Shown: piece by piece, positions 3,880 to 44,639 of the stretch | Layout of the letters: the number at the start of each line of letters is the position of its first letter | How positions within the stretch are numbered: position 1 is the stretch's first letter | Origin: Arcticibacter eurypsychrophilus | Lineage (GTDB): Bacteria > Bacteroidota > Bacteroidia > Sphingobacteriales > Sphingobacteriaceae | Direction: 5' to 3' | DNA length: 55,926 bases | NCBI RefSeq assembly: GCF_001730525.1 | Contig: NZ_MDFN01000033.1 | Coordinates: 1-55,926, forward strand | Notes under the pieces: generated by a model | The model's input: only the letters and a program-made list of their open reading frames with translations | Databases searched by the model: none | Told to the model about the DNA's origin: nothing | Program-made: the position numbers and the translations under genes

Positions 3880-5532
3880 TTATTTACTTTCAGACGTGAG
3901 GGCCTCAATAACTGGTTTACCAATGTTTCCATTAGGTGCCTGGATATGAAGTAAGGCAGATATAGTAGGGGCAATATCGGTCATGGCAACCGGACGATTG
4001 GTGGCTCCCTGTTTAATTCCCCATCCCATTAATACAAAGGGGATATGGGCATCATAAGGGTTCCATGTACCATGTGTGGTACCTGTTGCTCCTCCACTAT
4101 AAAACCCGGGCTTCAATATAATTTGAATGGCCCCACTTCTGTCTTTATTATATCCGTTAATGATTCGGGTCTTTAATTGCTCAGGTATAGAGGCTTGCTG
4201 TGCCTTTTCCATTTCAACAACATAAGCGATATCACTTCTTTTATTGAGATATTGAATGCATGTTTTTATAATAGCAGATTCATCCAGCTTGCTTTTCTCC
4301 ATAACCAACTTGTTTAAGTTGACCTGATAGTTAGTTAAGCCAATAACCAAGTTTGGCTGCTTGAACTCTTTCTCTAATATAGCATTCAACTCTTTGGTAA
4401 TCGTGCCGGAAGGAAATAAACCTGCAGGAATATGGTGTGACAGTAAAAAGTTAGGATTATGTGCAGCACCGTGATCAGCAGATAGAAAAACGGTATAATT
4501 CCCTTTCCCTAGTTTATTATCTATAAAGGTTAAAAAAGAAGCAATATCCTGATCAAGGCGTAGATAAGTGTCCTCTGCCTCTATGGAATTTGGCCCAAAT
4601 TGATGCCCCACATAATCGGTTGATGATAAACTTACTGCTAAGAAATCGGTTACATCACCTTGTCCCATTTGCTCATTGTCGATAGTGGCTTTTGCCATAT
4701 CAAAGGTTATTGAATTTCCATAAGGGGTGGCCCGTATAACAGATAAGTCTTTTTTATGCATGGTGGATGTTTCATATGGAAATACAGGAGCATTCACACC
4801 ACTAAACTTTCCTTCAAAGGGACTATCATCTTTTTCACTTTGCACGTAGGTGTTAGTAGGATATAGGGTATTCCAGTTTTTGTCCAGATACTTCTGAGGA
4901 AGCTTCTGATTGTTAACCGTTTTAACCCATGCAGGAAGATCTTTCATGTAATAGGTACTTGTAATCCAGTTACCCGTTAAATCATCAAACCAATAAGCTG
5001 CATTTGCTGCATGTCCCCCAGGTAATATTCCCCCTCTGTCTTTTATCGCAATGCCTATTGTTTTGGAGCGAAAGTTGGTAGCCAGCTTCAATTCATCAGT
5101 TACCGTAGTAACCAGTAAATTATTAGGTGACATTTCGCCTGCATTTGAAGTGCTTCCTACCGTTTTTACTGTGCTATCATCTGTGCAATACATGGATTTT
5201 CCGGTTGCCTGAATGATAAAGTCGTTGCCGGCAATGCCATGAAGCGAAGGTACCGATCCGGTATAAATAGTGGAATGCCCAATAGCGGTGACTGTAGGAA
5301 TATAATCAATATTGGTATTCTCGCAGGAGAATCCTTCCTGAAGAAGGCGTTTAAACCCGCCTTTAGCATATCTGTCCTGGTATCGGTAAAGGTAATCCCA
5401 CCTCATTTGATCAACGACAATCCCAACAACAAGTTTGGGTCTTTCTATTGAAGAAGAGGTGCTTTTTTTCTGTGCCGAAGCACCAAGGGTAAGCAAAATG
5501 AATGCAGTAACAAATAGATAGCTTAATTTCAT
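3880..5532 (-). CDS. pafA: PafA-type alkaline phosphatase (phosphate monoesterase)
   Basis: A 550-residue secreted enzyme (signal peptide residues 1-20, 'LGASA-QKK') of the PafA/nucleotide-pyrophosphatase branch of the alkaline phosphatase superfamily. The metal ligands and active site are visible: Asp41 in 'VVDQMRWDY', the nucleophile Thr (about 82) in 'PTVTAIGHS', Asn103, the phosphate-binding Lys164/Arg166 pair in 'IKDRGGILPGG', 'DYVGHQFGP', 'SADHGAAHNP' and the late His in 'THGTWNPYDAH'. The Lys/Arg pair distinguishes PafA monoesterases from diesterases. It should hydrolyse phosphomonoesters in the periplasm. It sits between the TonB-dependent receptor and the ThiE-like gene under a TPP riboswitch, which suggests thiamine phosphates as a physiological substrate (inference). 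Confidence 0.9.
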   Translation of the reverse strand: MKLSYLFVTAFILLTLGASAQKKSTSSSIERPKLVVGIVVDQMRWDYLYRYQDRYAKGGFKRLLQEGFSCENTNIDYIPTVTAIGHSTIYTGSVPSLHGIAGNDFIIQATGKSMYCTDDSTVKTVGSTSNAGEMSPNNLLVTTVTDELKLATNFRSKTIGIAIKDRGGILPGGHAANAAYWFDDLTGNWITSTYYMKDLPAWVKTVNNQKLPQKYLDKNWNTLYPTNTYVQSEKDDSPFEGKFSGVNAPVFPYETSTMHKKDLSVIRATPYGNSITFDMAKATIDNEQMGQGDVTDFLAVSLSSTDYVGHQFGPNSIEAEDTYLRLDQDIASFLTFIDNKLGKGNYTVFLSADHGAAHNPNFLLSHHIPAGLFPSGTITKELNAILEKEFKQPNLVIGLTNYQVNLNKLVMEKSKLDESAIIKTCIQYLNKRSDIAYVVEMEKAQQASIPEQLKTRIINGYNKDRSGAIQIILKPGFYSGGATGTTHGTWNPYDAHIPFVLMGWGIKQGATNRPVAMTDIAPTISALLHIQAPNGNIGKPVIEALTSESK

Positions 5533-5583
5533 TTTTTCGAATGTGTGAGCTCAAATATCGTAAATCCTCCAGTACTATTCCTA

Positions 5584-8306: not shown

Positions 8307-11204
8307 ATGCTACGTGTTGATAGTTCCAAGCCTTTTAAAGTCGTGTATTCATTGTGTAAACATGAATACCTTGGTTGGTTAATAGAACCTCATGTGGTTC
8401 AGTTAAACTCCGATGGAGGCTTTTCCCTTACCTACCAAAGGCTTTTTTCAAATACCATACAGGAGTTTGCCAAGGAGTTCGATGAGATAGATTTTAAACT
8501 GATTAAGCTTCTTGATGAAACGGAACAGTCTCATGTCATCAAGCGGTTTTATAAGAAACTAATCCGTCCGGCAGAATTCTTTGCGCGGATCTTCGATGAT
8601 AAGTTATTTCAGGTTATCCGTCCCAAAATAGAAAAACGCCTTATTGAAGCGATCGCTCTACTTCGACATAAAGGATTCTATCTGATGAGCAGGGAAGGCT
8701 GGCCGGTAGATCATCTACTTGAAGTCGCTGAAGAACCTGCATCCGTTTTATTTCACTTCCGACGTAATGAAGAAGAGACACGCTATTTTCCAACCATAAA
8801 ATATAAGGGTACGCGCATCGAGTTCATGTTTAAGGATGCGCAGATCATTTGCAATGAACCAGCCTGGTTATTATTGGAAAATGTGGTGTATAACTTCCAG
8901 GATGAGATGGAAGGTAAAAAACTGCAACCTTTTCTTAATAAACGGTTTATCTCTATTCCTAAAACTTCTGAAAAGAACTACTTTGAACGATTTGTAGCTC
9001 CTCTTATTGAGAAACATAACGTGTTTGCGGATGGATTTCAGATTAACACAGAGAAGTTTGATGCCTTTCCCGTATTAAAAGTAGATTTTGTGCCTGGTGG
9101 AACATCCCGTCTGGAACTTTTATTCAAATACGGGGAATATACTTTCCCTGCTGGGGTGGGAAGGAAGGTTTCTGTGCGCATGCAAATAGAAGGTGATGAC
9201 TATATCTTCCATCGCATCAAACGATCGCAACTCTGGGAGAAAAATAAACTGGATGAGTTACTGCATCTTGGCTTAAAAAAAACCAGTGATCTCTTTACTC
9301 AGTTCGAGGTAGAACCTCAATCAGATGAAACAGACCCTGCTCTTTCTATTATAGAATGGCTGAATGCCAATCATGCTGCACTGGCTGATTTAAATTTTGT
9401 AATCGAACAGGTTGAAGGGAAGAAGCGTTTCCTATTTGGTACCAGTAAGGTAGAGCTTGACTTCCAGGAGAACAACGATTGGTTCGATCTGAAAGCAGTT
9501 GTCTTTTTCGGGCCTTATCAGATTCCATTTATTGATCTGCGCCATCATATTTTAAATAAAATAAGGGAATATGTATTGCCATCTGGCGAAATAGCCATTA
9601 TTCCTGAAGAGTGGTTTGCCCAATATGGAAATTTGATGATGTTTACTGAACTTCATGGTGAGCATTTAAGACTAAAAAAACACCATATTGGACTGATAGC
9701 CGATTATGCGAATAGTGAGTTGGCAACCATTACGATGGGAAGAAAACTTCAGATGCTCAGTGCCTTTGAAGAGATCGAGGAGGCTCCTGTACCCATTAAC
9801 TTTAAAGGTGTCTTGCGCCCCTATCAGAAAGCGGGGTATGATTGGTTTCATTTCCTCCGTAAATATCACTTCGGAGGATGTTTGGCTGATGATATGGGTC
9901 TGGGTAAAACAGTGCAAACGCTTGCATTGCTGCAAAAGATTAAAGAGGAAAACGTAAAAGAGGGTACATTATCTACCTCTTTGATTATTATGCCTACTTC
10001 TTTAATTTATAACTGGGAGAATGAAGCCGGAAAGTTTGCACCCGAATTGAAAATACTGGTACATACCGGAAGTCTTCGCAGTAAAGATCTAAGCCGCTTT
10101 CTGGAATACGATGTGGTGCTAACCACCTATGGTATTACCAGGGTCGACATCGAGCTGATGGTGCATCTCTATTTTCATTATATCATTTTAGATGAAAGTC
10201 AGAACATCAAGAATCCCGCATCAAAAGCCTATAAAGCCGTAAGGCAGCTTAAATCAAAGAATAAGTTGATCCTCAGTGGAACTCCTGTGGAGAACACGGT
10301 GAATGATCTTTGGGCGCAGATGTCTTTCATTAACCCTGGCTTACTTGGAAACCAGACGTTCTTTCAAAATGATTTCGCAAACCCCATAGAGAAAAAGAAA
10401 GATGATGAAAAGGCGAAGAAGCTGCTCGCTTTAATCAAACCGTTTGTATTAAGGCGCACAAAAAATCAGGTTGCCAAAGAACTTCCTGACAAAACAGAAC
10501 AGCTTTTTTATTGTCGTATGACCGATGATCAGGCCGAATATTACGAAAATGTGAAGTCTGAATACCGGAATGCACTGTTGGACTCCTTAGAAGACGGCAC
10601 TTATGTGAAATCTCAGATTCAGGTATTGCAGGGATTGACCAGACTTCGTCAAATTGCCAATCACCCACTGATGGTGGACAAAGAATACGAAGGTGAATCC
10701 GGTAAATTTGAAAACGTGATTCATACCCTGGAAAATGTACTAGCAGAAGGGCATAAAGTATTAGTTTTTTCCCAGTTTGTGAAACAGCTTGATATCTACA
10801 GGACCTATCTGGATAAAGAAAATGTCACCTACGCTTATCTGGATGGAAACACGAAGAACCGAGGTGAGGTAGTAGAAGAATTTCAGCGGAATGATGATAT
10901 TAAGTTATTCCTTATTTCACTAAAAGCGGGGGGTGTAGGACTCAATTTGACCGAGGCTGATTACGTATTTCTACTTGATCCATGGTGGAATCCTGCTGTG
11001 GAGCAACAGGCCGTAGACCGCACACACCGCATAGGCCAGACTAAAAACGTATTTATTTATAAGTTTATAACCAAAGATAGTGTGGAGGAAAAGATTCTTG
11101 CCTTACAAAACAGAAAGCGAATTGTAGCTGAAACTCTTATTACTACCGAGGAAAGCTTCGTTAAATCATTATCTCCTGAAGATATTAAAGAAATTTTAAA
11201 TTAA
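8307..11204 (+). CDS. SNF2-family DEAD/DEAH-box helicase
   Basis: A protein of about 965 residues with a C-terminal SNF2/Rad54-type ATPase. Walker A is 'DDMGLGKTVQT' (about residues 527-537) and motif II is 'DESQNIKNP', with 'LSGTPVEN', 'KVLVFSQF' and the motif VI region 'GVGLNLTEADYV...DRTHRIGQ'. The N-terminal 500 residues are the long, poorly conserved region typical of bacterial SNF2 proteins. The Met at 8307 ('MLRVDSSKPFKV') is preferred; an upstream start at 8265 would add a hydrophobic 14-residue stretch overlapping the divergent promoter region. The role is probably nucleic-acid translocation in transcription or repair; no defence-island partners are present. Confidence 0.9.
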   Translation: MLRVDSSKPFKVVYSLCKHEYLGWLIEPHVVQLNSDGGFSLTYQRLFSNTIQEFAKEFDEIDFKLIKLLDETEQSHVIKRFYKKLIRPAEFFARIFDDKLFQVIRPKIEKRLIEAIALLRHKGFYLMSREGWPVDHLLEVAEEPASVLFHFRRNEEETRYFPTIKYKGTRIEFMFKDAQIICNEPAWLLLENVVYNFQDEMEGKKLQPFLNKRFISIPKTSEKNYFERFVAPLIEKHNVFADGFQINTEKFDAFPVLKVDFVPGGTSRLELLFKYGEYTFPAGVGRKVSVRMQIEGDDYIFHRIKRSQLWEKNKLDELLHLGLKKTSDLFTQFEVEPQSDETDPALSIIEWLNANHAALADLNFVIEQVEGKKRFLFGTSKVELDFQENNDWFDLKAVVFFGPYQIPFIDLRHHILNKIREYVLPSGEIAIIPEEWFAQYGNLMMFTELHGEHLRLKKHHIGLIADYANSELATITMGRKLQMLSAFEEIEEAPVPINFKGVLRPYQKAGYDWFHFLRKYHFGGCLADDMGLGKTVQTLALLQKIKEENVKEGTLSTSLIIMPTSLIYNWENEAGKFAPELKILVHTGSLRSKDLSRFLEYDVVLTTYGITRVDIELMVHLYFHYIILDESQNIKNPASKAYKAVRQLKSKNKLILSGTPVENTVNDLWAQMSFINPGLLGNQTFFQNDFANPIEKKKDDEKAKKLLALIKPFVLRRTKNQVAKELPDKTEQLFYCRMTDDQAEYYENVKSEYRNALLDSLEDGTYVKSQIQVLQGLTRLRQIANHPLMVDKEYEGESGKFENVIHTLENVLAEGHKVLVFSQFVKQLDIYRTYLDKENVTYAYLDGNTKNRGEVVEEFQRNDDIKLFLISLKAGGVGLNLTEADYVFLLDPWWNPAVEQQAVDRTHRIGQTKNVFIYKFITKDSVEEKILALQNRKRIVAETLITTEESFVKSLSPEDIKEILN

Positions 11205-13050: not shown

Positions 13051-14229
13051 TTAAAAGAGTAAATTATCATAAGGATACCTTACTGTATGCATTGCTTTTG
13101 CTTGCTCATAAACAAGCTGTTTAAGCTCTTCCAGATTTTCCTTATTTAGTGCTGAGATGAATACAGCAGGACTATTATGCTTACCCATCCAGCTATTCCT
13201 GAAATCGTCCAGACTTAAAATTTCTGCATCATGACCGCTTTCTGATTTCCAGGCATCAATTTTATTAAATACTGTGATGGTTTTTTTATCAGCTACTCCC
13301 AGTTCTTTTAGCGTTTCATTCACTGTTCTGATCTGGTCTTCAAAATTAGGATGAGAAATATCAACCACATGCATCAAAATATCAGCCTCTCTGACCTCGT
13401 CCAACGTAGATTTAAAGCACTCAACCAGGTGAACAGGGAGTTTACGGATAAACCCTACAGTATCAGAAAGCAGAAATGGGAGATTATCAATTACCACTTT
13501 CCTGACGGTAGTATCCAGCGTTGCAAACAACTTGTTTTCCGCAAAAACATCCGATTTAGATAGCATGTTCATAATAGTTGACTTCCCAACATTAGTATAT
13601 CCTACCAAAGCCACACGAATAAGCTGACCACGGTTTTTGCGCTGTGTTCCATTCTGTTTATCAATCAGTTTAAGTTTTTCCTTCAGTATAGAAATTTTAG
13701 TCTGAATAATTCTTCGGTCACTCTCAATTTGACTTTCTCCAGGACCACGCATCCCAATACCACCTTTTTGTCGCTCAAGGTGAGTCCACAAACGTGTTAA
13801 ACGAGGTAATAGATATTGCAGCTGAGCCAGTTCGACCTGTGCTTTAGCCTGTGCGGTTTGCGCTCTACTGGCAAAAATATCAAGGATCAGATTACTTCTA
13901 TCCAGTATTTTAACCTCAAGTTCATTCTCAATGTTTCTGATCTGCGAAGGCGTAAGCTCATCATCAAACACTACCAAATCTATTTCTTCCGACCGCACAT
14001 AGGCCTGTATTTCTTCCAGTTTACCCTTCCCTACAAATGTAGCCCGGTCTGTATGAGTCATCTTTTGAGTAAAGATTTTCTCCGTAACACCTCCGGCAGT
14101 ATCCACCAGAAATTCCAGCTCTTCCAGATATTCGCGCACTTTGGCTTCCGATTCATCCTGGGTAATCACACCCACCAGTATAGCCCGTTCTTGTTTTATA
14201 GTAGTATCAAATGATTCTTGTTTTGGCAT
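13051..14229 (-). CDS. hflX: GTPase HflX
   Basis: A 392-residue HflX, a ribosome-associated GTPase that splits stalled or heat-damaged 70S particles. The N-terminal HflX domain is followed by the glycine-rich 'GGIGMRGPGESQIESDRR' (about 156-173). The G domain has G1 'GYTNVGKST' (210-218), the G2 region 'FATLDTTVRK', G3 'DTVGFI' and G4 'NKID'. Length is normal. It begins only 13 bases after trpC on the same strand, so it may be read from the trp promoter and fall partly under trp attenuation. Confidence 0.95.
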   Translation of the reverse strand: MPKQESFDTTIKQERAILVGVITQDESEAKVREYLEELEFLVDTAGGVTEKIFTQKMTHTDRATFVGKGKLEEIQAYVRSEEIDLVVFDDELTPSQIRNIENELEVKILDRSNLILDIFASRAQTAQAKAQVELAQLQYLLPRLTRLWTHLERQKGGIGMRGPGESQIESDRRIIQTKISILKEKLKLIDKQNGTQRKNRGQLIRVALVGYTNVGKSTIMNMLSKSDVFAENKLFATLDTTVRKVVIDNLPFLLSDTVGFIRKLPVHLVECFKSTLDEVREADILMHVVDISHPNFEDQIRTVNETLKELGVADKKTITVFNKIDAWKSESGHDAEILSLDDFRNSWMGKHNSPAVFISALNKENLEELKQLVYEQAKAMHTVRYPYDNLLF

Positions 14230-14242
14230 GTATAAATTGTTA

Positions 14243-15082
14243 TTAATCCGCCTTTAGCTCATTCACAAATTCTTGTATAGCTAATCCCGGATCATGATGT
14301 TTCATAAAATTTTCCCCTATCAGGAAACCATTAAATCCAGCTTTTTTTAATTCAATTATCGTTTGCGGATCGCTGATTCCGCTCTCTGAGATCTTCAGGA
14401 ACTGATTAGGTATTAATTTAACCAAATCGTAAGAGTTCTGAACGGAGACCGTAAAGTTATCCAGATTACGGTTATTTACTCCTATAGCATCCAGGTCATC
14501 CATCATACTCTGTTCCAGTTCCTGTTGGTTATGCACTTCGAGTAAAACGTTCAAGCCAATACTTTTCGCCAACTTTGCAAAATGAGCAATCTGTGGAGGG
14601 GTCAGTATAGAAGCAATGAGCAGAATTATATCAGCTCCAATCGCTTTCGATTCAATGATCTGGTATTCGTCAATAATAAAATCCTTGCGTAAGATAGGGA
14701 TTTGAATAGCCCCTCTTGCTTCAAGAAGATCGCGCATCCGGCCACCAAAGAACTTCTTATCCGTTAATACGGATACAGCAGAAGAGCCTGCAGCAGCATA
14801 TTGTCGGGTCACCACAGATGCAGCAGCCTGATCATTAATAATCCCTTTTGATGGAGAGGCACGTTTAAATTCCGCTATAATCCCTGTACGAGCAGGATCA
14901 AGCATAAAATCGCGCATTGATAGACAGGTACGATGGAAGTGTTCCGTCTTCTCCAGGCTGCTCATCGCCACCTTAATTTTCGCATCCCTGATCTCCTGCT
15001 GTTTATACGATACAATTTTTTCAAGTATACCACCCTGTTCAATCGTAGGAACAAAAGTGTCCGGTATATTTCGTGACTCCAT
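14243..15082 (-). CDS. trpC: Indole-3-glycerol-phosphate synthase
   Basis: TrpC closes the indole ring in tryptophan synthesis, converting CdRP to indole-3-glycerol phosphate. The single TIM barrel has the catalytic Lys in 'AEFKRASPSKG', 'PILRKDFIIDEYQ', 'LLEVHN', 'IGVNNRNLDNF' and 'SESGI'. I use the Met at 15082 ('MESRNIPDTF'), giving 279 residues and a 10-base gap from trpG. The ATG at 15127 would make a 35-base overlap with trpG and a non-conserved extension. There is no TrpF fusion. Confidence 0.93.
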   Translation of the reverse strand: MESRNIPDTFVPTIEQGGILEKIVSYKQQEIRDAKIKVAMSSLEKTEHFHRTCLSMRDFMLDPARTGIIAEFKRASPSKGIINDQAAASVVTRQYAAAGSSAVSVLTDKKFFGGRMRDLLEARGAIQIPILRKDFIIDEYQIIESKAIGADIILLIASILTPPQIAHFAKLAKSIGLNVLLEVHNQQELEQSMMDDLDAIGVNNRNLDNFTVSVQNSYDLVKLIPNQFLKISESGISDPQTIIELKKAGFNGFLIGENFMKHHDPGLAIQEFVNELKAD

Positions 15083-17572: not shown

Positions 17573-18439
17573 TTATAGCTCTTCTATTTCTAATACGGAC
17601 AGATCAGTAAATTCAGCGATCTTTTCAATTGGAACGCCTTGGGTTTTCATCTTACGAGCTGCTTCTTTTTTCCCTTCTATTTTCCCTTCCACATATTTCT
17701 TTTCTTCTGCTTCTTGAACTGCATAGAAAAGGACATTCTCATAATCCCATTTTTGCTCTAAACTTGTTCTGTATGACATATACTCCTCCTTTGTTAAATT
17801 GCTTACCTCTGCTATCTGGAACACCTTTTCAAAAACACGTTTGTTAAAGTAGACGGGCATTTTGTCCAGTCGGCTCATGTTCTTCAATAGATAAAACCAG
17901 CGATCAAGCCCTGTTTCTAATTCTTCAGCTCTTTTCGTAAAGTTAGGCAATTCCAAAAACTTATAACCCAGTTTCTTATAAAATATTGTGCCTGTATCTT
18001 TGTCCATCAAACAGATGTCGTGCAAGTATTGTTTGGAAGGTAATTTGTCAATGGTAAAGTCCAGAACGGCGATTAAATATACTTCCTTCAACTCATAGGT
18101 GTCGCTTTCCTTTCCAACTGACAATTGTTCATTGATCAGGCGCGAAGTATAGAATATAGAGCGGTCCCGGAAATAAAGCTGTTTTCCGCGTTGCATCTCT
18201 ACGATAAATTGCTCTCCATTAGCTCCTGTACATGATAGATCGAAAATTGCTTTTTTAAAATCACGCAAATTAGCAGCATGTTCGTTGGGTTTATAGGTAA
18301 TATCAACGATATGTTTTTCACCTTTAAAAAGTTCATTCAAAAAATCTTTAATGATATCTTTATTAGGTTCAGATCCGAAAAGGCGTTTAAATCCCCAATC
18401 TGTTAGAGGGTCAATATAGCGACCTGTATTTAGTTCCAT
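17573..18439 (-). CDS. PD-(D/E)XK nuclease family transposase (Rpn-like)
   Basis: A 288-residue protein of the PD-(D/E)XK nuclease family transposase group, starting at the Met at 18439 ('MELNTGRYIDPLTDWGFKRLFG'), which is the family start; the open frame runs 65 codons further upstream without conserved sequence. The nuclease core is the 'FDLSCTGANGEQFIVEMQRG' region, with Asp and E-x-Q as catalytic residues, followed by 'YFRDRSIFYTSRLINEQL'. The C-terminus is charged and helical. No terminal inverted repeats or target duplication are evident, so it is annotated as a gene of this family and not as an insertion sequence. Confidence 0.85.
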   Translation of the reverse strand: MELNTGRYIDPLTDWGFKRLFGSEPNKDIIKDFLNELFKGEKHIVDITYKPNEHAANLRDFKKAIFDLSCTGANGEQFIVEMQRGKQLYFRDRSIFYTSRLINEQLSVGKESDTYELKEVYLIAVLDFTIDKLPSKQYLHDICLMDKDTGTIFYKKLGYKFLELPNFTKRAEELETGLDRWFYLLKNMSRLDKMPVYFNKRVFEKVFQIAEVSNLTKEEYMSYRTSLEQKWDYENVLFYAVQEAEEKKYVEGKIEGKKEAARKMKTQGVPIEKIAEFTDLSVLEIEEL

Positions 18440-18785
18440 TGGTTTATTATGGTTTAGAATACAGGCAATGTACAAAGAAATTGCCTGTATGAGCTTTCCA
18501 TAAATAGAAAAACATGACAATGAATTTCTCAATGATTTAAGTCCAATTATCCTTTTAGATAATCTAATTTTCGAATAGTTATAATAGTCTGTAAATACTA
18601 CTAAAGCTTCCTTCGCTATACCTACTTTGCTCAAATCCTGCTATAGCATGCGGAATGACAGGAGAGGTTTTATTATCAAATAAAGGATTGATATGTTAGG
18701 TAGTAAGCATGGGTAATCAACACCTAATTTTCTTCCACTGAAAACTAACTCCAAGGGGTTCAAACAACTCGATTTTATTGAATTG
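18440..18785. other. Intergenic region without a recognisable gene
   Basis: This 346-base stretch between the nuclease-transposase start and the end of the next minus-strand gene contains only an open but non-conserved upstream extension of the nuclease frame. I see no RNA gene, strong hairpin or consensus promoter in it. Confidence 0.4.
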
Positions 18786-20717: not shown

Positions 20718-21875
20718 TTAATAAGTAGGAAGATCTAATTCCAGCTCATTGATATAATTAATTATCCCTCCTTCGAGATTATACAGATTATTAAAACCAT
20801 ACTTATCCTCCAAAATGCGAATGGCTTTGGCACTGCGTACACCAGATTTACACATCACTACTACCCTCGTGTTCCTGTCAATAGTACCTCCCGAAGCACT
20901 TATGGTAGAAAGCGGAATTAATTCCGTTCCAATATTCACATAATCATACTCATCCGCTTCGCGCACGTCAATGATCTGAAAATCCAAACCCTGTTCCTGC
21001 CAATCCTGCAAATCCGTAGGACTTACTTCTTTAAGTGGCTTTTCAATGGCTTTTACGCCGCAAAATTGTTCATAATCAATCAATTCTTTGATCGTCGGAT
21101 TTTCTCCGTTTACAGGGTTAGCCGGGTTTTTGCTGATATTGAAAGTTCTGGATTCAAAACTAAGGGCATCAAATGTAAAAAAACGACCACTTAGGGTGTC
21201 TCCTACGTTGGTAATAACCTTAATGACTTCCAAGGCCTGAAGGCTGCCGATAATACCTGGCAAAACGCCTAATACGCCAGCTTCCGAACAATTAGGCACA
21301 GCTCCCGGATCGGGAGGAGTTGGAAACAAGTCCCGGTAATTGGGTCCACGAACTCCTTGGTCATTTAGCTGATTGAATACAGAAACCTGTCCTTCAAACT
21401 GGAAAATAGATGCATACACATTTGGCTTATTAAGCAACAAGCAGGCATCATTTACCAAATACCGGGTAGGAAAATTGTCAGTGCCATCGGCTACAACATC
21501 GTACCCGCCTATAATTTCTAAGGCATTTTGAGATGTCAGCTGCGTATTATATACGGTAATATTAATGTGTGGGTTTAGAGATAACAGCCGTTTTTTTGCC
21601 GCTTCAGTTTTTGGAATGCCGACCTCCTCGATGCCAAACAGGACTTGCCGATGCAGGTTACTGTCGTCGACCACGTCGCAATCCACAATCCCAATATGGC
21701 CTACTCCTGCTGCAGCGAGGTACAATAGAACAGGACTGCCTAATCCACCCGCACCTACTACCAGTACGCTTGATTTCTTTAATTTTTCCTGAGCTTCCAT
21801 GCCAAAACCAGGAATGATAATATGGCGATTGTAACGCGCCAGTTCTTCTTTAGAAAAGAGGGTATTCTGAGTCAT
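20718..21875 (-). CDS. E1-like MoeB/ThiF adenylyltransferase with C-terminal rhodanese (MoeZ-like)
   Basis: A 385-residue two-domain protein. The E1-like domain (about 1-250) has the nucleotide-binding 'SVLVVGAGGLGSPVLLYLAAAGVGHIGIVD', 'DGTDNFPTRYLVND' and 'PNCSEAGVLG'. The paired CxxC zinc motifs of E. coli MoeB are not seen. The rhodanese domain (about 285-385) has 'IIDVREADEY' and the active loop 'MCKSGVRS', with its Cys near 342. Such proteins adenylate the C-terminal glycine of a ubiquitin-fold carrier and load it with sulfur as a thiocarboxylate. It starts six bases after the CysO-like gene, its likely substrate. Mycobacterium MoeZ, which serves CysO, has the same architecture. Confidence 0.9.
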   Translation of the reverse strand: MTQNTLFSKEELARYNRHIIIPGFGMEAQEKLKKSSVLVVGAGGLGSPVLLYLAAAGVGHIGIVDCDVVDDSNLHRQVLFGIEEVGIPKTEAAKKRLLSLNPHINITVYNTQLTSQNALEIIGGYDVVADGTDNFPTRYLVNDACLLLNKPNVYASIFQFEGQVSVFNQLNDQGVRGPNYRDLFPTPPDPGAVPNCSEAGVLGVLPGIIGSLQALEVIKVITNVGDTLSGRFFTFDALSFESRTFNISKNPANPVNGENPTIKELIDYEQFCGVKAIEKPLKEVSPTDLQDWQEQGLDFQIIDVREADEYDYVNIGTELIPLSTISASGGTIDRNTRVVVMCKSGVRSAKAIRILEDKYGFNNLYNLEGGIINYINELELDLPTY

Positions 21876-21881
21876 TGGTGA

Positions 21882-22163
21882 TCAAATTAAATTTCCGCCT
21901 GCTATAGCTGGTACAATGCTGATAACTGAACGTGTTTCTACGTGTGTGTGGTTATACTGTAGGTTTCGTATATCATCTTCATCTACGAATACATTAATAA
22001 ACGATCGAATGGAGCCGCTTGGATCAAGAAGATGTTTCTGTACATCGGGATATTGATGTACAAGATTGGCGATAATTTCAGACACATCATTTCCTGAGAT
22101 ATTGATTTTAGCTGAATTGCCGGTAAACTTCCTTAAGGGGGTTGGAATTATAACAGTAGCCAT
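21882..22163 (-). CDS. CysO/ThiS/MoaD-like ubiquitin-fold sulfur carrier with C-terminal extension
   Basis: A 93-residue beta-grasp protein. It opens with 'VIIPTPLRKFTGN', contains 'FINVFVDEDDIR' and ends 'ISIVPAIAGGNLI', matching the CysO/MoaD layout. The usual C-terminal Gly-Gly is followed by three extra residues (NLI), so a peptidase must expose the glycine before activation. This is how JAMM-dependent carriers work (known for CysO-adduct release and for carriers such as HcyS and QbsE). The adjacent upstream gene encodes the expected JAMM peptidase and the downstream gene the E1. The final sulfur acceptor is unknown. Confidence 0.88.
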   Translation of the reverse strand: MATVIIPTPLRKFTGNSAKINISGNDVSEIIANLVHQYPDVQKHLLDPSGSIRSFINVFVDEDDIRNLQYNHTHVETRSVISIVPAIAGGNLI

Positions 22164-22189
22164 ATGTTTTGAGTTAAGTTTTACTTATT

Positions 22190-22623
22190 TTACAATAATA
22201 TTTCTATAATTTGTTCTTGAAATTTTTGCTCTTCATCCAGTTGCCAGCATTTAGGTGCCGAAACACCCCGTCCTGATACGGAGATAATGAGATATGAAAT
22301 ATTGGGCAAAGCAAACTGCTTGTCATCAGGAGAAGGTAATGCGGGCTGATTGGGATGGGAATGATAAATTCCCAGCAATGCAAGGTTATTTTGTTCAGCA
22401 TATCGTTCAGCTTTCATATAGTCGTATGGATTTATTTTAAAATAACGATGCTTTTCTGAACCCTCATCATTTTTAACTTCCAAAGCAATTTTTACATTAT
22501 CTTCCTGTGTTCCCTGAATGCCAAAAAAAAACCACAACATTCATTTGGAAATATACGTACAGCACTTTCAATCATTACTGACCAGGGATCCGCTGCTATG
22601 ATCAATTTGTTAAAGTTTGCCAT
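22190..22623 (-). pseudogene. JAMM/M67 metallopeptidase, frameshifted at a nine-T run
   Basis: A Mec/QbsD-like JAMM zinc peptidase whose frame is interrupted. From the ATG at 22623, frame one encodes residues 1-33, including the catalytic Glu28 in 'FPNECCGFF'. It then runs into the T9 tract (22523-22531 on the plus strand as A9) and stops near 22492. The other frame continues from the same tract as 'FFFGIQGTQED' and holds the zinc motif 'GIYHSHPNQPALPSPDD' (H-x-H-P-x7-S-x2-D). One extra T restores a normal 144-residue protein. The short ORF from 22540 alone lacks the catalytic Glu. Explanations are a real inactivating deletion, a homopolymer sequencing error, or slippage at the tract. It lies 23 bases after the SDR gene and 26 bases before the carrier gene. 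Confidence 0.85.
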
Positions 22624-22646
22624 ACCTGTAGATTTTTAAATCGGGG

Positions 22647-24065
22647 TTAAGAAATATTTTTTTCTACTATCAAATCTTTTATCTGTTCTGAATACTCAGA
22701 ATCTTCCAGACTCTCAATCAACAATGAAACAGTGGGACCATAATGAGCTATAGTAGTGCCCTCTGCTTTTAAATATTGAGGTTTAAGTCCCCATTCTAAT
22801 ATTTTAAAAGTTACACGTTTATCGACTTTCTTTAATGCAGCCCGTACAAGAATCTTTAGTTCAGTAAGTAAACGTACTTTGGAGCAGTTTTCTCCCTCGG
22901 TATTTTGAATACGGATCAGGGAATCAAGTAGAATTTTTTCATCAACTGGACAAACATGCGAAATGATAATATCACCCTCTTCATTATATGATTTGTCTTT
23001 GCATTCATATACATTAATCAGCAAATTTAATTCCTGGGGATGAGACCAATCCATTTGTCCTCTAAAGAATTTTTCCGAGTATCCTGGTGGGTTTCCTCTA
23101 AAAATGACTGGGATAAAGCTGCCGGCCTCTTTAATGTAATACAGGGCAACTTCCAAACTTTCAACTGGCCATTCGAGGTTTCGTACAATTAGAAAATTAG
23201 CTTTTCCGGTCGTAGAATGGAGTAAGGCATTTAGCATCAGGTCAGCTGCTTCTTGAACGTTCTGAGCCGTTACATACTTTCCCGGGCTGTGGAGGGAAAG
23301 ATGATCTGCATTTCTGGCGTTTTGAAATTCAATATCCATCAAACTATTATCCAGAATATGAGTAAACCTAACTATTGAATAGAGTACGTCACTACGCCGG
23401 GCATAGGTATCAAATATTAATTCACATATTTTCTTCGTAGCAGAGTAAACCTCGTCTGTATAATACCTGCTGGATTTGCCAGTGGATGAAAAAACACATT
23501 GTTTTACTGAAGGTGTGTTTTCGCATGCTTTAGCCAGATTCCAGGTTCCTATTACATTTATGTTTACAGCATCGAAAATATGGTTTTCAGCAAAACCAGG
23601 ATCGCGCTGAGCCGCGGTGTGAAATACGAACTCTGGTTGATAGGTTGCAAAAATTTCATTTAGTTCATCCGAATTGCAGATGTCTGCCTGAATATATTCT
23701 ACGCGGTTGTTGCTAGTATTTGCTTTATCATTAAAAGGTTTTTTATCTATAACAATTATTTTACTGATTTGGAAATCCAGTAATTTATTTAAGAGACTGC
23801 TACCTACGCATCCCAATCCTCCGGTAACTATGCAGGTACTTGATTTTAACAAATCGTTTATTTCAGCTACAGGCAAGCTTAATTTTCTTTTTGTAGTCGG
23901 CGAAAATGGATTTTCATCTAATCGACCCTCTGCATTATATAGTTCAATAAGCTGTTTCGTTAAATTCAGCAGTTCGGAATATGATTCTGGTAAATGCAGT
24001 TTAGGAGACAATTCCCATATTTTCTCAAAAATTGAAGAAATTGTATACATGTTTTTATTATTCAT
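22647..24065 (-). CDS. SDR-family NAD(P)-dependent epimerase/dehydratase-like protein
   Basis: A 472-residue protein. After about 70 helical N-terminal residues it has a Rossmann domain with the 'TGGLGCVGSS' nucleotide motif (81-90), an acidic 'IVIDKKPF' at the end of strand 2, 'YIQADI', 'FHTAAQRDPGFAENH', 'VFSSTGKSS' and the catalytic Y207-x3-K211. This resembles nucleotide-sugar dehydratases and epimerases of the polysaccharide-biosynthesis SDR type. Residues 330-472 match no domain I know. It is the first gene of the four-gene set SDR, JAMM, carrier, E1, so it may act on a sugar or metabolite modified with sulfur. That link is inferred only from operon position. Confidence 0.8.
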   Translation of the reverse strand: MNNKNMYTISSIFEKIWELSPKLHLPESYSELLNLTKQLIELYNAEGRLDENPFSPTTKRKLSLPVAEINDLLKSSTCIVTGGLGCVGSSLLNKLLDFQISKIIVIDKKPFNDKANTSNNRVEYIQADICNSDELNEIFATYQPEFVFHTAAQRDPGFAENHIFDAVNINVIGTWNLAKACENTPSVKQCVFSSTGKSSRYYTDEVYSATKKICELIFDTYARRSDVLYSIVRFTHILDNSLMDIEFQNARNADHLSLHSPGKYVTAQNVQEAADLMLNALLHSTTGKANFLIVRNLEWPVESLEVALYYIKEAGSFIPVIFRGNPPGYSEKFFRGQMDWSHPQELNLLINVYECKDKSYNEEGDIIISHVCPVDEKILLDSLIRIQNTEGENCSKVRLLTELKILVRAALKKVDKRVTFKILEWGLKPQYLKAEGTTIAHYGPTVSLLIESLEDSEYSEQIKDLIVEKNIS

Positions 24066-24788: not shown

Positions 24789-25265
24789 ATGGAAAAGAAG
24801 AGCCTTAATTTAGAAATTGATAATCTGGATATGCAGATTCTGTCAATCCTTATGGAAGATGCAACAATCCCTTATACAGAGATAGCTAAAAAGCTAATTG
24901 TTTCGGGTGGCACCATTCATGTGAGGATGAAAAAGATGCAGGATCTGGGTATAATAAAAGGGTCAAACTTATTGGTGGATGCCCAAAAAATCGGATATGA
25001 TGTTTGTGCTTATCTGGGTATTTACCTTGAAAAGGGATCAACTTATAAAGATGCGGTAGAAAAGTTGAGAAATATAAAGGAAATTGTCGAGTTGCATTAT
25101 ACTACAGGTGCCTGGAGCATGTTCGCTAAAATTATTTGTCGTGATACCAATCATCTTCGGTTAGTATTAAATGATCATATTCAATCTGTACCAGGAATTC
25201 AACGTACAGAGACCTTTATTTCACTTGAAGAAAGCATTAAAAGACAGATTAATTTGGATTTATAA
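24789..25265 (+). CDS. Lrp/AsnC family transcriptional regulator
   Basis: A 158-residue Lrp/AsnC protein. The N-terminal winged helix-turn-helix has 'LDMQILSILMEDATIPYTEIAKKLIVSGGTIHVRMKKMQDLGII', followed by the RAM ligand-binding domain with 'CAYLGIYLEKGS', 'IVELHYTTGAWSMFAKIICRD' and 'PGIQRTETFISLEE'. Such proteins sense amino acids or related metabolites and bind DNA as multimers. It is divergent from the tRNA-like unit and the SDR-JAMM-carrier-E1 genes and convergent with pdhB. A regulatory link to either is possible but unproven. Confidence 0.92.
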   Translation: MEKKSLNLEIDNLDMQILSILMEDATIPYTEIAKKLIVSGGTIHVRMKKMQDLGIIKGSNLLVDAQKIGYDVCAYLGIYLEKGSTYKDAVEKLRNIKEIVELHYTTGAWSMFAKIICRDTNHLRLVLNDHIQSVPGIQRTETFISLEESIKRQINLDL

Positions 25266-43640: not shown

Positions 43641-44639
43641 TTAGTATGGAAATTTATAAAGGATTCCTAATGAGATCGTCTGACTTGCCTGAATTTTATT
43701 ACTGGCATCATCGTCATAAAGGACTACTGCAGCTACAGTCACATTAATGAATCTATTTACTTTCGCAATCATGGTAAGGTCGAGACGTTGGTCAATATTT
43801 CCAAGCTTTTCGTAATTGGCAAACATGGTATACACACTTTTAACTACTAAATTAGGCATCACTTCTTTTTCAAAGTTACTCACCAGCTGAAAGGCGAGCT
43901 CATTTCGGATGACTTTACCAGTATCCACACCATAATTTTTAGAACTATTTTTATAAATATTCTTATCCAAAACAAAGGTTTGACGGGCTGTTCCAGTACC
44001 GATACGTAAGGAATAAAAGCGACTTGGTCTAAACTCCAGACCTAACGATTCCGTTAAATAACCTGGCGACATAAAACGGGAAATAGTTGTAGCCTTTTCT
44101 CTCTTGACATCATCTTCAGTTATAGTTGAGTAGGCAAATCCTCTGTCAAATTGAGATTCAAAGTTGATAGACCCAAAGAAATTCCAGCTTTTAGATAATT
44201 TTAAGGCCACTTTATTATCCCAATACAAGCGGTCATTTGTTTTTCGCTGCAACTGACCTTTATTTTTTATCTTACCATATTGCAAAATAACTTCCGAAAC
44301 ATAACTTTTATCGCCTTTAGTATAGTCTGTTTTATAATTGAAAGACGTTCCTACAGCGAGCGAAGTAATACCCCCACCACTCCAATTATCACTAAAAGAA
44401 GCCTGATTCATATTAATTCCAAAAGATACCCAATTCCGCCAGTAATTTACTTTCAGGTTAAGTTCCGATTCGGGAATTTGTATTGGTTGAAGCTGCAGAA
44501 ACGGTCGTCTAACAGAAAGACTTTTTTTTTGAGGATATTGTCTTAATTCGCTTAACTCAGTTGTGTCCGATTTGATATCCTGTGAAAATGCATTTAAAGA
44601 ACAGGCCAAGCACAGCAAAAATAATAGTCTTGTCACCAT
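43641..44639 (-). CDS. DUF3078 outer-membrane-like protein
   Basis: A 332-residue secreted protein (signal peptide to 'LNAFSQ'). The 'NYWRNWVSFGINMNQASFSDNWSGGGITSLAVGTSF' region is the DUF3078 hallmark, and the rest alternates beta-strand patterns suggesting a barrel, ending 'ISLGILYKFPY' with a terminal aromatic residue. The function of the family is not known to me. It is upstream on the minus strand of ffh by 68 bases. Confidence 0.82.
   Translation of the reverse strand: MVTRLLFLLCLACSLNAFSQDIKSDTTELSELRQYPQKKSLSVRRPFLQLQPIQIPESELNLKVNYWRNWVSFGINMNQASFSDNWSGGGITSLAVGTSFNYKTDYTKGDKSYVSEVILQYGKIKNKGQLQRKTNDRLYWDNKVALKLSKSWNFFGSINFESQFDRGFAYSTITEDDVKREKATTISRFMSPGYLTESLGLEFRPSRFYSLRIGTGTARQTFVLDKNIYKNSSKNYGVDTGKVIRNELAFQLVSNFEKEVMPNLVVKSVYTMFANYEKLGNIDQRLDLTMIAKVNRFINVTVAAVVLYDDDASNKIQASQTISLGILYKFPY

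Follow-up and report, generated by a model that had tools for sequence, protein, structure and literature searches.

Why should a sulfur-carrier protein, its activating enzyme and a peptidase be encoded in one run with a short-chain dehydrogenase/reductase (SDR)? The question is raised by four minus-strand genes within positions 20718-24065 of a 55,926-nucleotide stretch of Arcticibacter eurypsychrophilus (contig NZ_MDFN01000033.1, hereafter the window), whose open reading frames (ORFs) encode an SDR, a JAMM peptidase, a ubiquitin-fold carrier and an E1-type activating enzyme fused to a rhodanese domain. On balance we lean towards the reading that these genes form a self-contained sulfur-delivery cassette, in which the E1-rhodanese makes a carrier thiocarboxylate and the SDR is the acceptor-side enzyme. 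The layout given in a preliminary description of this DNA, with intergenic gaps of 23 (SDR-JAMM), 26 (JAMM-carrier) and 6 bases (carrier-E1), a JAMM gene out of frame and a carrier ending in AIAGGNLI, was confirmed. The features are as follows.

22647..24065, minus strand: SDR of the PglF/CapD branch, 472 residues, with the active-site motif TGK...YxxxK
22190..22623, minus strand: JAMM peptidase gene in two frames, MANFNK...NECCGFF up to a run of nine T (T9), then HSHPNQPALPSPDD
22523..22531, minus strand: T9 run on the coding strand, where the JAMM reading frame shifts by -1; the same T9 occurs in Arcticibacter svalbardensis
21882..22163, minus strand: CysO-like ubiquitin-fold carrier, 93 residues, AIAGG plus the three-residue cap NLI
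20718..21875, minus strand: MoeZ-like E1 fused to rhodanese, 385 residues, with GAGGLGS, PNCSEAG and CKSGVRS

Pfam assigned the SDR to Polysacc_synt_2/Epimerase, the JAMM to Prok-JAB, the carrier to ThiS and the E1-rhodanese to ThiF plus Rhodanese.

Linkage of the SDR to the carrier and E1 genes

A scan of contigs revealed full-length SDR relatives in A. svalbardensis (93% identity), Pedobacter MR2016-24 (61%), two Chryseolinea (55% and 52%) and Algoriphagus aestuariicola (48%), all identities referring to the best segment only. Profile searches added one genome from Chryseolinea's order (G847) and three from the window's family (G979, G1080 and G1153); a further profile match, G1026, carries the same genes as Pedobacter MR2016-24 and was not counted separately. 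In all ten resulting Bacteroidota genomes, window included, the carrier and E1 genes follow the SDR gene on the same strand, so that both adjoin each of the ten full-length SDR loci, and in nine the JAMM gene lies between SDR and carrier, the exception being locus L038 of G1153. The four-gene order that the preliminary description proposed to seek in relatives was found in eight further genomes and, lacking the JAMM, in a ninth; the SDR is a fixed partner of the set, and the outcome feared there, an SDR that never co-occurs with the other three genes, was not seen. Flanking genes vary between lineages, indicating that the cassette is self-standing in most.

The SDR was present in six of 400 genomes drawn from the window's order (Sphingobacteriales), in each case adjoined by the carrier gene. 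A carrier profile applied to the same order and draw size matched seven genomes, comprising the six SDR-bearing ones (E 7.2e-44 or better) and G1071, which has a distant carrier (E 1.4e-14). No close carrier lacking the SDR appeared in this 400-genome draw, for which the profile was built from SDR-linked carriers and favours those. The SDR occurred in two of 390 genomes of Chryseolinea's order (the Chryseolinea genome itself counted) and in two of 201 in the family draw; the window genome was the only one among 188 in the class draw and was joined by one partial 28% match in the phylum draw (395), the family, class, phylum and order draws overlapping. The contig scan, which used exact peptide patterns, yielded five loci and missed L030, L038, L039 and L040. 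Searching plasmids with the SDR gave 291 records, all of them covering less than 80% of the query; the 20 matches listed were Sinorhizobium proteins of about 24% identity, and the one plasmid region inspected was a polysaccharide region in which carrier and E1 are not annotated. None of 18 candidate stretches on viral contigs was confirmed.

Carrier, peptidase and SDR

Compared with solved structures, the carrier profile matched CysO (3dwg_C, 1.8e-15) and 4n6e_B (5.8e-15) best, with four further solved carriers, SAMP1- and MoaD-type among them, weaker (1e-9 to 2e-4). Together with the AIAGG found near the end of all ten carriers, which is of the PA(V/I)AGG type, this indicates by sequence that the carrier is CysO-like, CysO being its nearest solved relative, as the preliminary description had it; judged by these search E-values, a firm grouping with the ThiS or MoaD of a known pathway was not seen. 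A role as thiamine or molybdenum cofactor (Moco) carrier was also rejected from gene context: three carriers of the window genome exceed the Pfam cut-off, namely the cassette carrier, a ThiS next to ThiC and thiamine monophosphate synthase, and a MoaD flanked by MoaA- and MoaE-type genes, and G1153 has a separate MoaD-like carrier beside an E1-rhodanese and MoaA. The seventh carrier match, in G1071, is an orphan CysO-like carrier ending in SRAGG that occurs with a rhodanese-first E1 (L049, 80-1243 and 4962-5246); by eye it lies in a run with ABC-transporter-like genes, and neither JAMM nor SDR was seen by eye in 10 kb.

The E1 nucleotide loop, active Cys and rhodanese loop are kept in all ten genomes, as expected of a MoeZ/MoeB-type E1-rhodanese. 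The window E1 passed the NCBIfam MoeB subfamily (281 bits, cut-off 266) and scored 428 bits with the MoeZ equivalog, below its cut-off of 647. A phage-defence system of the ubiquitin-like E1-E2/JAB kind was rejected, as PADLOC matches were confined to the generic portions of the E1 (window protein) and of the JAB (L008 JAMM), the SDR and carrier had none, and the E2 domain of such anti-phage systems was not found beside the E1.

All ten carriers contain AIAGG, and nine are capped after Gly-Gly. Seven caps consist of two to six residues (NLI in the window and L007, KI in L008, AYRI in L009, APSTKA in L010, IYKK in L039 and NYKGE in L040), and in L011 and L030 the Gly-Gly runs directly into the E1, giving proteins of 470 and 476 residues with ThiS, ThiF and Rhodanese domains. 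The same nine loci have a JAMM, its motif (Glu plus HxH...SxxD) complete in a single frame in seven and split by T9 in two. The L038 carrier ends exactly at Gly-Gly, and the short SDR-carrier interval there contains no JAMM. In a Prok-JAB search of the nine cassette genomes other than that of L011, eight had a match over the cut-off, each within the cassette, and G1153, a one-contig genome, had none, only three weak matches below it. Because the JAMM is missing exactly where the carrier is uncapped, it appears to be a carrier-uncapping protease; on the simplest explanation of these sequences, exposing Gly-Gly is most likely its only essential task. Capped carriers are reported to need a protease, for example QbsD (PMC6006322; this and the other papers given by PMC number are cited for the parts available to us). 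The membership of the JAMM in the sulfur-carrier set, proposed earlier, stands, with its probable role revised to uncapping. In the two carrier-E1 fusion lineages the JAMM (L011 11400-11813; L030 8968-9387) has HTHL in place of HSHP, a variant possibly fitted to a different cleavage site.

The SDR has the extended SDR fold of the PglF branch, PglF being its best match in both fold and sequence (structure model from 10 sequences, pLDDT score 83, replacing a 6-sequence model of pLDDT 76). Its active-site residues are T195, G196, K197, Y207 and K211, and the motif TGK...YxxxK, with an intact Thr/Tyr/Lys triad, is found in all ten genomes. PglF Asp396 aligns with Gly196, which is Gly in all ten, and the acid/base pair [ST]D[EK] that precedes YxxxK in nucleotide-sugar SDR 4,6-dehydratases (PglF/PseB/CapD; Table 1 of PMC8987622) is likewise absent from all ten. 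Ordinary 4,6-dehydration is unlikely because the dehydratase Asp is replaced, and we rejected a role as ordinary 4,6-dehydratase; the resemblance to nucleotide-sugar dehydratases noted earlier holds for the fold and probably not for the reaction. Most of the supposedly unknown 140-residue C-terminal region matched the PglF-type fold, leaving an extra helical stretch at about 405-472 and another at the N-terminus (1-51). The UDP-sulfoquinovose synthase motif [ST]MG...YxxxK of SQD1/Agl3 is present in none of the ten; the window SDR scored 16 bits (E 0.0045) with NCBIfam UDPsulfquin_syn, for which the cut-off is 575. SQD1 was not among the 50 matches listed for the SDR, an absence that carries no weight.

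Proposed sulfur delivery and the frame break weighed against alternatives

In the scheme that we propose, the JAMM would remove the short cap after the carrier Gly-Gly, the E1 would adenylate the freed end, and the rhodanese persulfide (sulfane sulfur) would thiolate the carrier to carrier-COSH. The SDR, predicted to be NAD(P)-dependent, would use its Thr/Tyr/Lys triad to turn a hydroxyl group on a substrate resembling a nucleotide sugar into a ketone, take sulfur from carrier-COSH and perhaps return the hydride, yielding a thio-sugar. What can be read directly from the sequences is that the genes are linked in order in ten genomes, that caps and JAMM genes go together, that the motifs of E1, rhodanese and triad are preserved and that the SDR lacks the Asp of dehydratases; thiocarboxylate formation on the carrier would follow the precedent of MoeZ/CysO. 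The preliminary description suggested that the set makes a thiocarboxylate and that the SDR may make or receive the thiolated product; the set is indeed dedicated and the SDR its fixed partner, and we infer the acceptor step because the SDR is the sole other constant partner. A sugar substrate and thio-sugar product are suggested by the SDR fold and by one operon, L030, where the cassette forms the end of a seven-gene run on one strand that includes CDP-sugar-type enzymes (gaps of 118 bases or less). First in this run are genes for a glucose-1-phosphate cytidylyltransferase (434.9 bits, cut-off 300.25) and an epimerase, followed by RmlC (176.5, cut-off 155.75) and a DRL-type oxidoreductase. 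A bolder version, in which the SDR is a thiocarboxylate-dependent thiosugar synthase (a counterpart of BexX/ThiG and SQD1) and the JAMM serves only to uncap the carrier or cut it from the E1, its output held down in Arcticibacter by slippage of transcription at T9, is a tentative proposal that may well be wrong.

The JAMM gene itself is split between two frames in Arcticibacter, its first frame running from 22623 to the T9 run (22531-22523) and its second, HSHPNQPALPSPDD, ending at 22190, and A. svalbardensis has the identical T9 and break. Over the 330 bases after T9 the two species differ by 20.5 synonymous changes in 68 sites and 17.5 non-synonymous changes in 262 (ratio of non-synonymous to synonymous rates, dN/dS, 0.18; Fisher p 2.7e-6 on rounded counts), distributed 8/9/21 by codon position, and dN/dS is near 1 or above when this piece is read in the other two frames. 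The JAMM part after T9 is under purifying selection. When scaled to the Chryseolinea pair, in which the JAMM is encoded in a single frame, divergence is 0.264 for the JAMM, 0.252 for the SDR, 0.238 for the E1 and 0.086 for the carrier, showing no excess of the JAMM over SDR and E1. Slippage on a run of U that adds a nucleotide joins two frames in mxiE, and 9A or 9T runs are slippage-prone in many bacteria (PMC1088944). The shared T9, the purifying selection after it and the mxiE precedent make slippage, or a -1 ribosomal shift on T9, likely, so that the JAMM is probably functional via slippage and probably made at reduced level in both Arcticibacter species. The frame break reported earlier is present in the sequence, and the gene that it divides is probably functional. 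A second T9 (window 44522-44530) lies inside a 332-residue minus-strand ORF (43641-44639), so T9 itself is not unique here.

Several observations weigh against the proposed scheme. Its chemistry is a prediction from genes, the SDR lacks a known sulfur-transferase motif, and the rule linking cap and JAMM stands on one natural loss. Pairwise distances among loci are correlated between the four proteins (Mantel r 0.85-0.91; 10 or 9 loci), which fits genes travelling together, and shared species history alone could produce the same r. An evident sugar operon exists at one of the ten loci only, L030: the cassette in L040 is divergent from neighbouring epimerase, GFO/IDH and WecG genes and, on its other side, convergent with a deoxyxylulose phosphate (DXP) synthase gene, the cassette in L038 is preceded by NusG- and Wzz-type genes and followed by a Moco region with its own carrier, a carbohydrate esterase gene lies upstream on the opposite strand in L009 and L010, and no sugar-nucleotide genes were found among the neighbours scanned or read for the window, L007, L008, L011 and L039. 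In L030 itself a Cys/Met-metabolism pyridoxal phosphate (PLP) enzyme gene (4400-5569, 1.1e-130) lies about 2 kb downstream on the same strand, separated from the cassette by ribosomal L25 and peptidyl-tRNA hydrolase genes, and its product is possibly another sulfur acceptor there. Finally, the break at T9 may reflect an error of sequencing or a gene loss of very recent date: the 90 bases before T9 contain only 2 synonymous and 2 non-synonymous changes, too few to inform, and dN/dS is higher for the JAMM (0.18) than for the SDR (0.09), E1 (0.04) and carrier (0.03).

That the carrier serves an unlinked acceptor, such as a cysteine or homocysteine synthase or tRNA thiolation, with the SDR acting later or separately, seems unlikely to us. 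CysO works with CysM. Minimal JAMM/carrier/E1-rhodanese operons that have no acceptor gene linked to them are already on record (Iyer et al. 2006, PMC1779556, Table 1 row 4b), and the PLP enzyme of L030 could fit this view; as inspection by eye showed no such neighbour at the remaining nine loci, it shifts the odds of the readings little. Against an unlinked acceptor, the close carrier family occurred only with the SDR in the 400-genome draw, and no PALP-family (cysteine synthase type) gene was found within 100 kb on the cassette's contig in the five cassette genomes searched; a CysM partner in the operon was seen neither in these nor, by eye only, in the other five. To this extent the earlier remark that no CysM gene stands beside the cassette is borne out. 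Reversible protein tagging, in which the E1 alone would conjugate the carrier to the SDR or other proteins and the JAMM would act as desampylase, is less probable still. SAMP1/UbaA tagging in Haloferax works in this way with no need of an E2, and NCBIfam gave matches to SAMP1 (1.2e-11), UbaA (7.1e-87) and desampylase (1.5e-11), all below their cut-offs. Nevertheless, the rhodanese domain is kept in all ten genomes, the nearest solved carrier is CysO, and a JAMM of this family is not needed for deconjugation in G1153, with its uncapped carrier and no JAMM, a natural gene loss that separates uncapping from deconjugation.

The remaining alternative concerns T9, and it is a sizeable possibility, if short of probable: the Arcticibacter JAMM may be a dying pseudogene, or the break a sequencing error, with nothing recoded. 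T9 runs are readily mutated, each of the remaining seven JAMM genes reads through in a single frame, dN/dS among the four genes is highest for the JAMM, and homopolymer errors are frequent with the 454 platform. The A. svalbardensis genome was obtained on that platform (PMC3709154), but the T9 is common to both species and the window genome is presumably that of A. eurypsychrophilus MJ9-5, a strain sequenced by Illumina (PMC5435697). A dead gene is also at odds with the codon-position pattern and dN/dS after the break, with the lack of a rate excess over SDR and E1, and with the slippage precedent of mxiE and 9A/9T runs.

Relation to known systems and flanking features

To our knowledge, every protein-thiocarboxylate pathway described so far relies on an acceptor enzyme of its own (ThiG, MoaE, CysM or BexX). 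If the sulfur-delivery scheme is true, a nucleotide-sugar-type SDR acceptor would be a new chemical outlet and a new route of sulfur into a sugar-like molecule, sulfur-containing sugars would be predicted in Bacteroidota, and the scheme could be tested with small soluble proteins. In the CysO/Mec/MoeZ/CysM system of Mycobacterium, Mec acts on the CysO-cysteine adduct and MoeZ has NYRD and no CxxC pairs. The cassette resembles this system in that CysO is its nearest solved carrier and its E1 has NYRD without CxxC pairs, but its carrier is capped, CysM is not near it (five genomes searched, five by eye) and its JAMM appears to act before thiolation. BexX, of the BE-7585A pathway, is ThiG-like. 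Its sulfur-carrier plus MoeZ chemistry also feeds a 2-thiosugar (PMC5321127); BexX borrows carriers of primary metabolism, whereas the cassette SDR has its own set.

The published operon closest in content (Iyer et al. 2006, rows 4b-4c; PMC1779556) shares the carrier, JAB/JAMM, E1-rhodanese fusion and sporadic distribution; the three-gene operon and other carrier-ThiF-type fusions were thus already described, and the role of the JAB in such operons was called mysterious in 2006. The cassette differs in having a PglF-fold SDR as constant partner, where row 4c has cysteine synthase, and in its carrier-E1 fused and JAMM-less variants. We did not find the SDR partner, the match between cap and JAMM, this group's carrier-E1 fusions or the T9 break described in the one open literature library searched. 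Like the carriers of QbsE/QbsD/QbsC and PdtH/PdtG/PdtF, which are capped after Gly-Gly and protease-exposed (QbsD, PMC6006322), nine of ten cassette carriers are capped and the same nine loci have a JAMM, but a CoA-transferase or AMP-ligase partner was not seen beside the cassettes. SQD1/Agl3 is also an NAD-dependent SDR that joins a sulfur nucleophile to a nucleotide sugar (PMC4388408) and likewise lacks the dehydratase Asp ([ST]MG...YxxxK), but it uses sulfite rather than a protein thiocarboxylate and its motif differs from TGK. PglF/WbpM UDP-GlcNAc 4,6-dehydratase is the best fold and sequence match; PglF has TDK...M in place of TGK...Y, and the terminal helices of the cassette SDR are extra.

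Among the flanking features, a PD-(D/E)XK nuclease family transposase gene (window 17573-18634; Pfam PDDEXK_2, 6.4e-72) lies about 2 kb downstream of the cassette, and an Lrp/AsnC-type regulator (24789-25265), with zero amino-acid changes relative to A. svalbardensis, lies upstream on the other strand. In Algoriphagus (L011) two similar genes without a Pfam match (8489-9271 and 13609-14397; likeness by eye from the first residues) flank the cassette, which suggests its insertion between duplicates.

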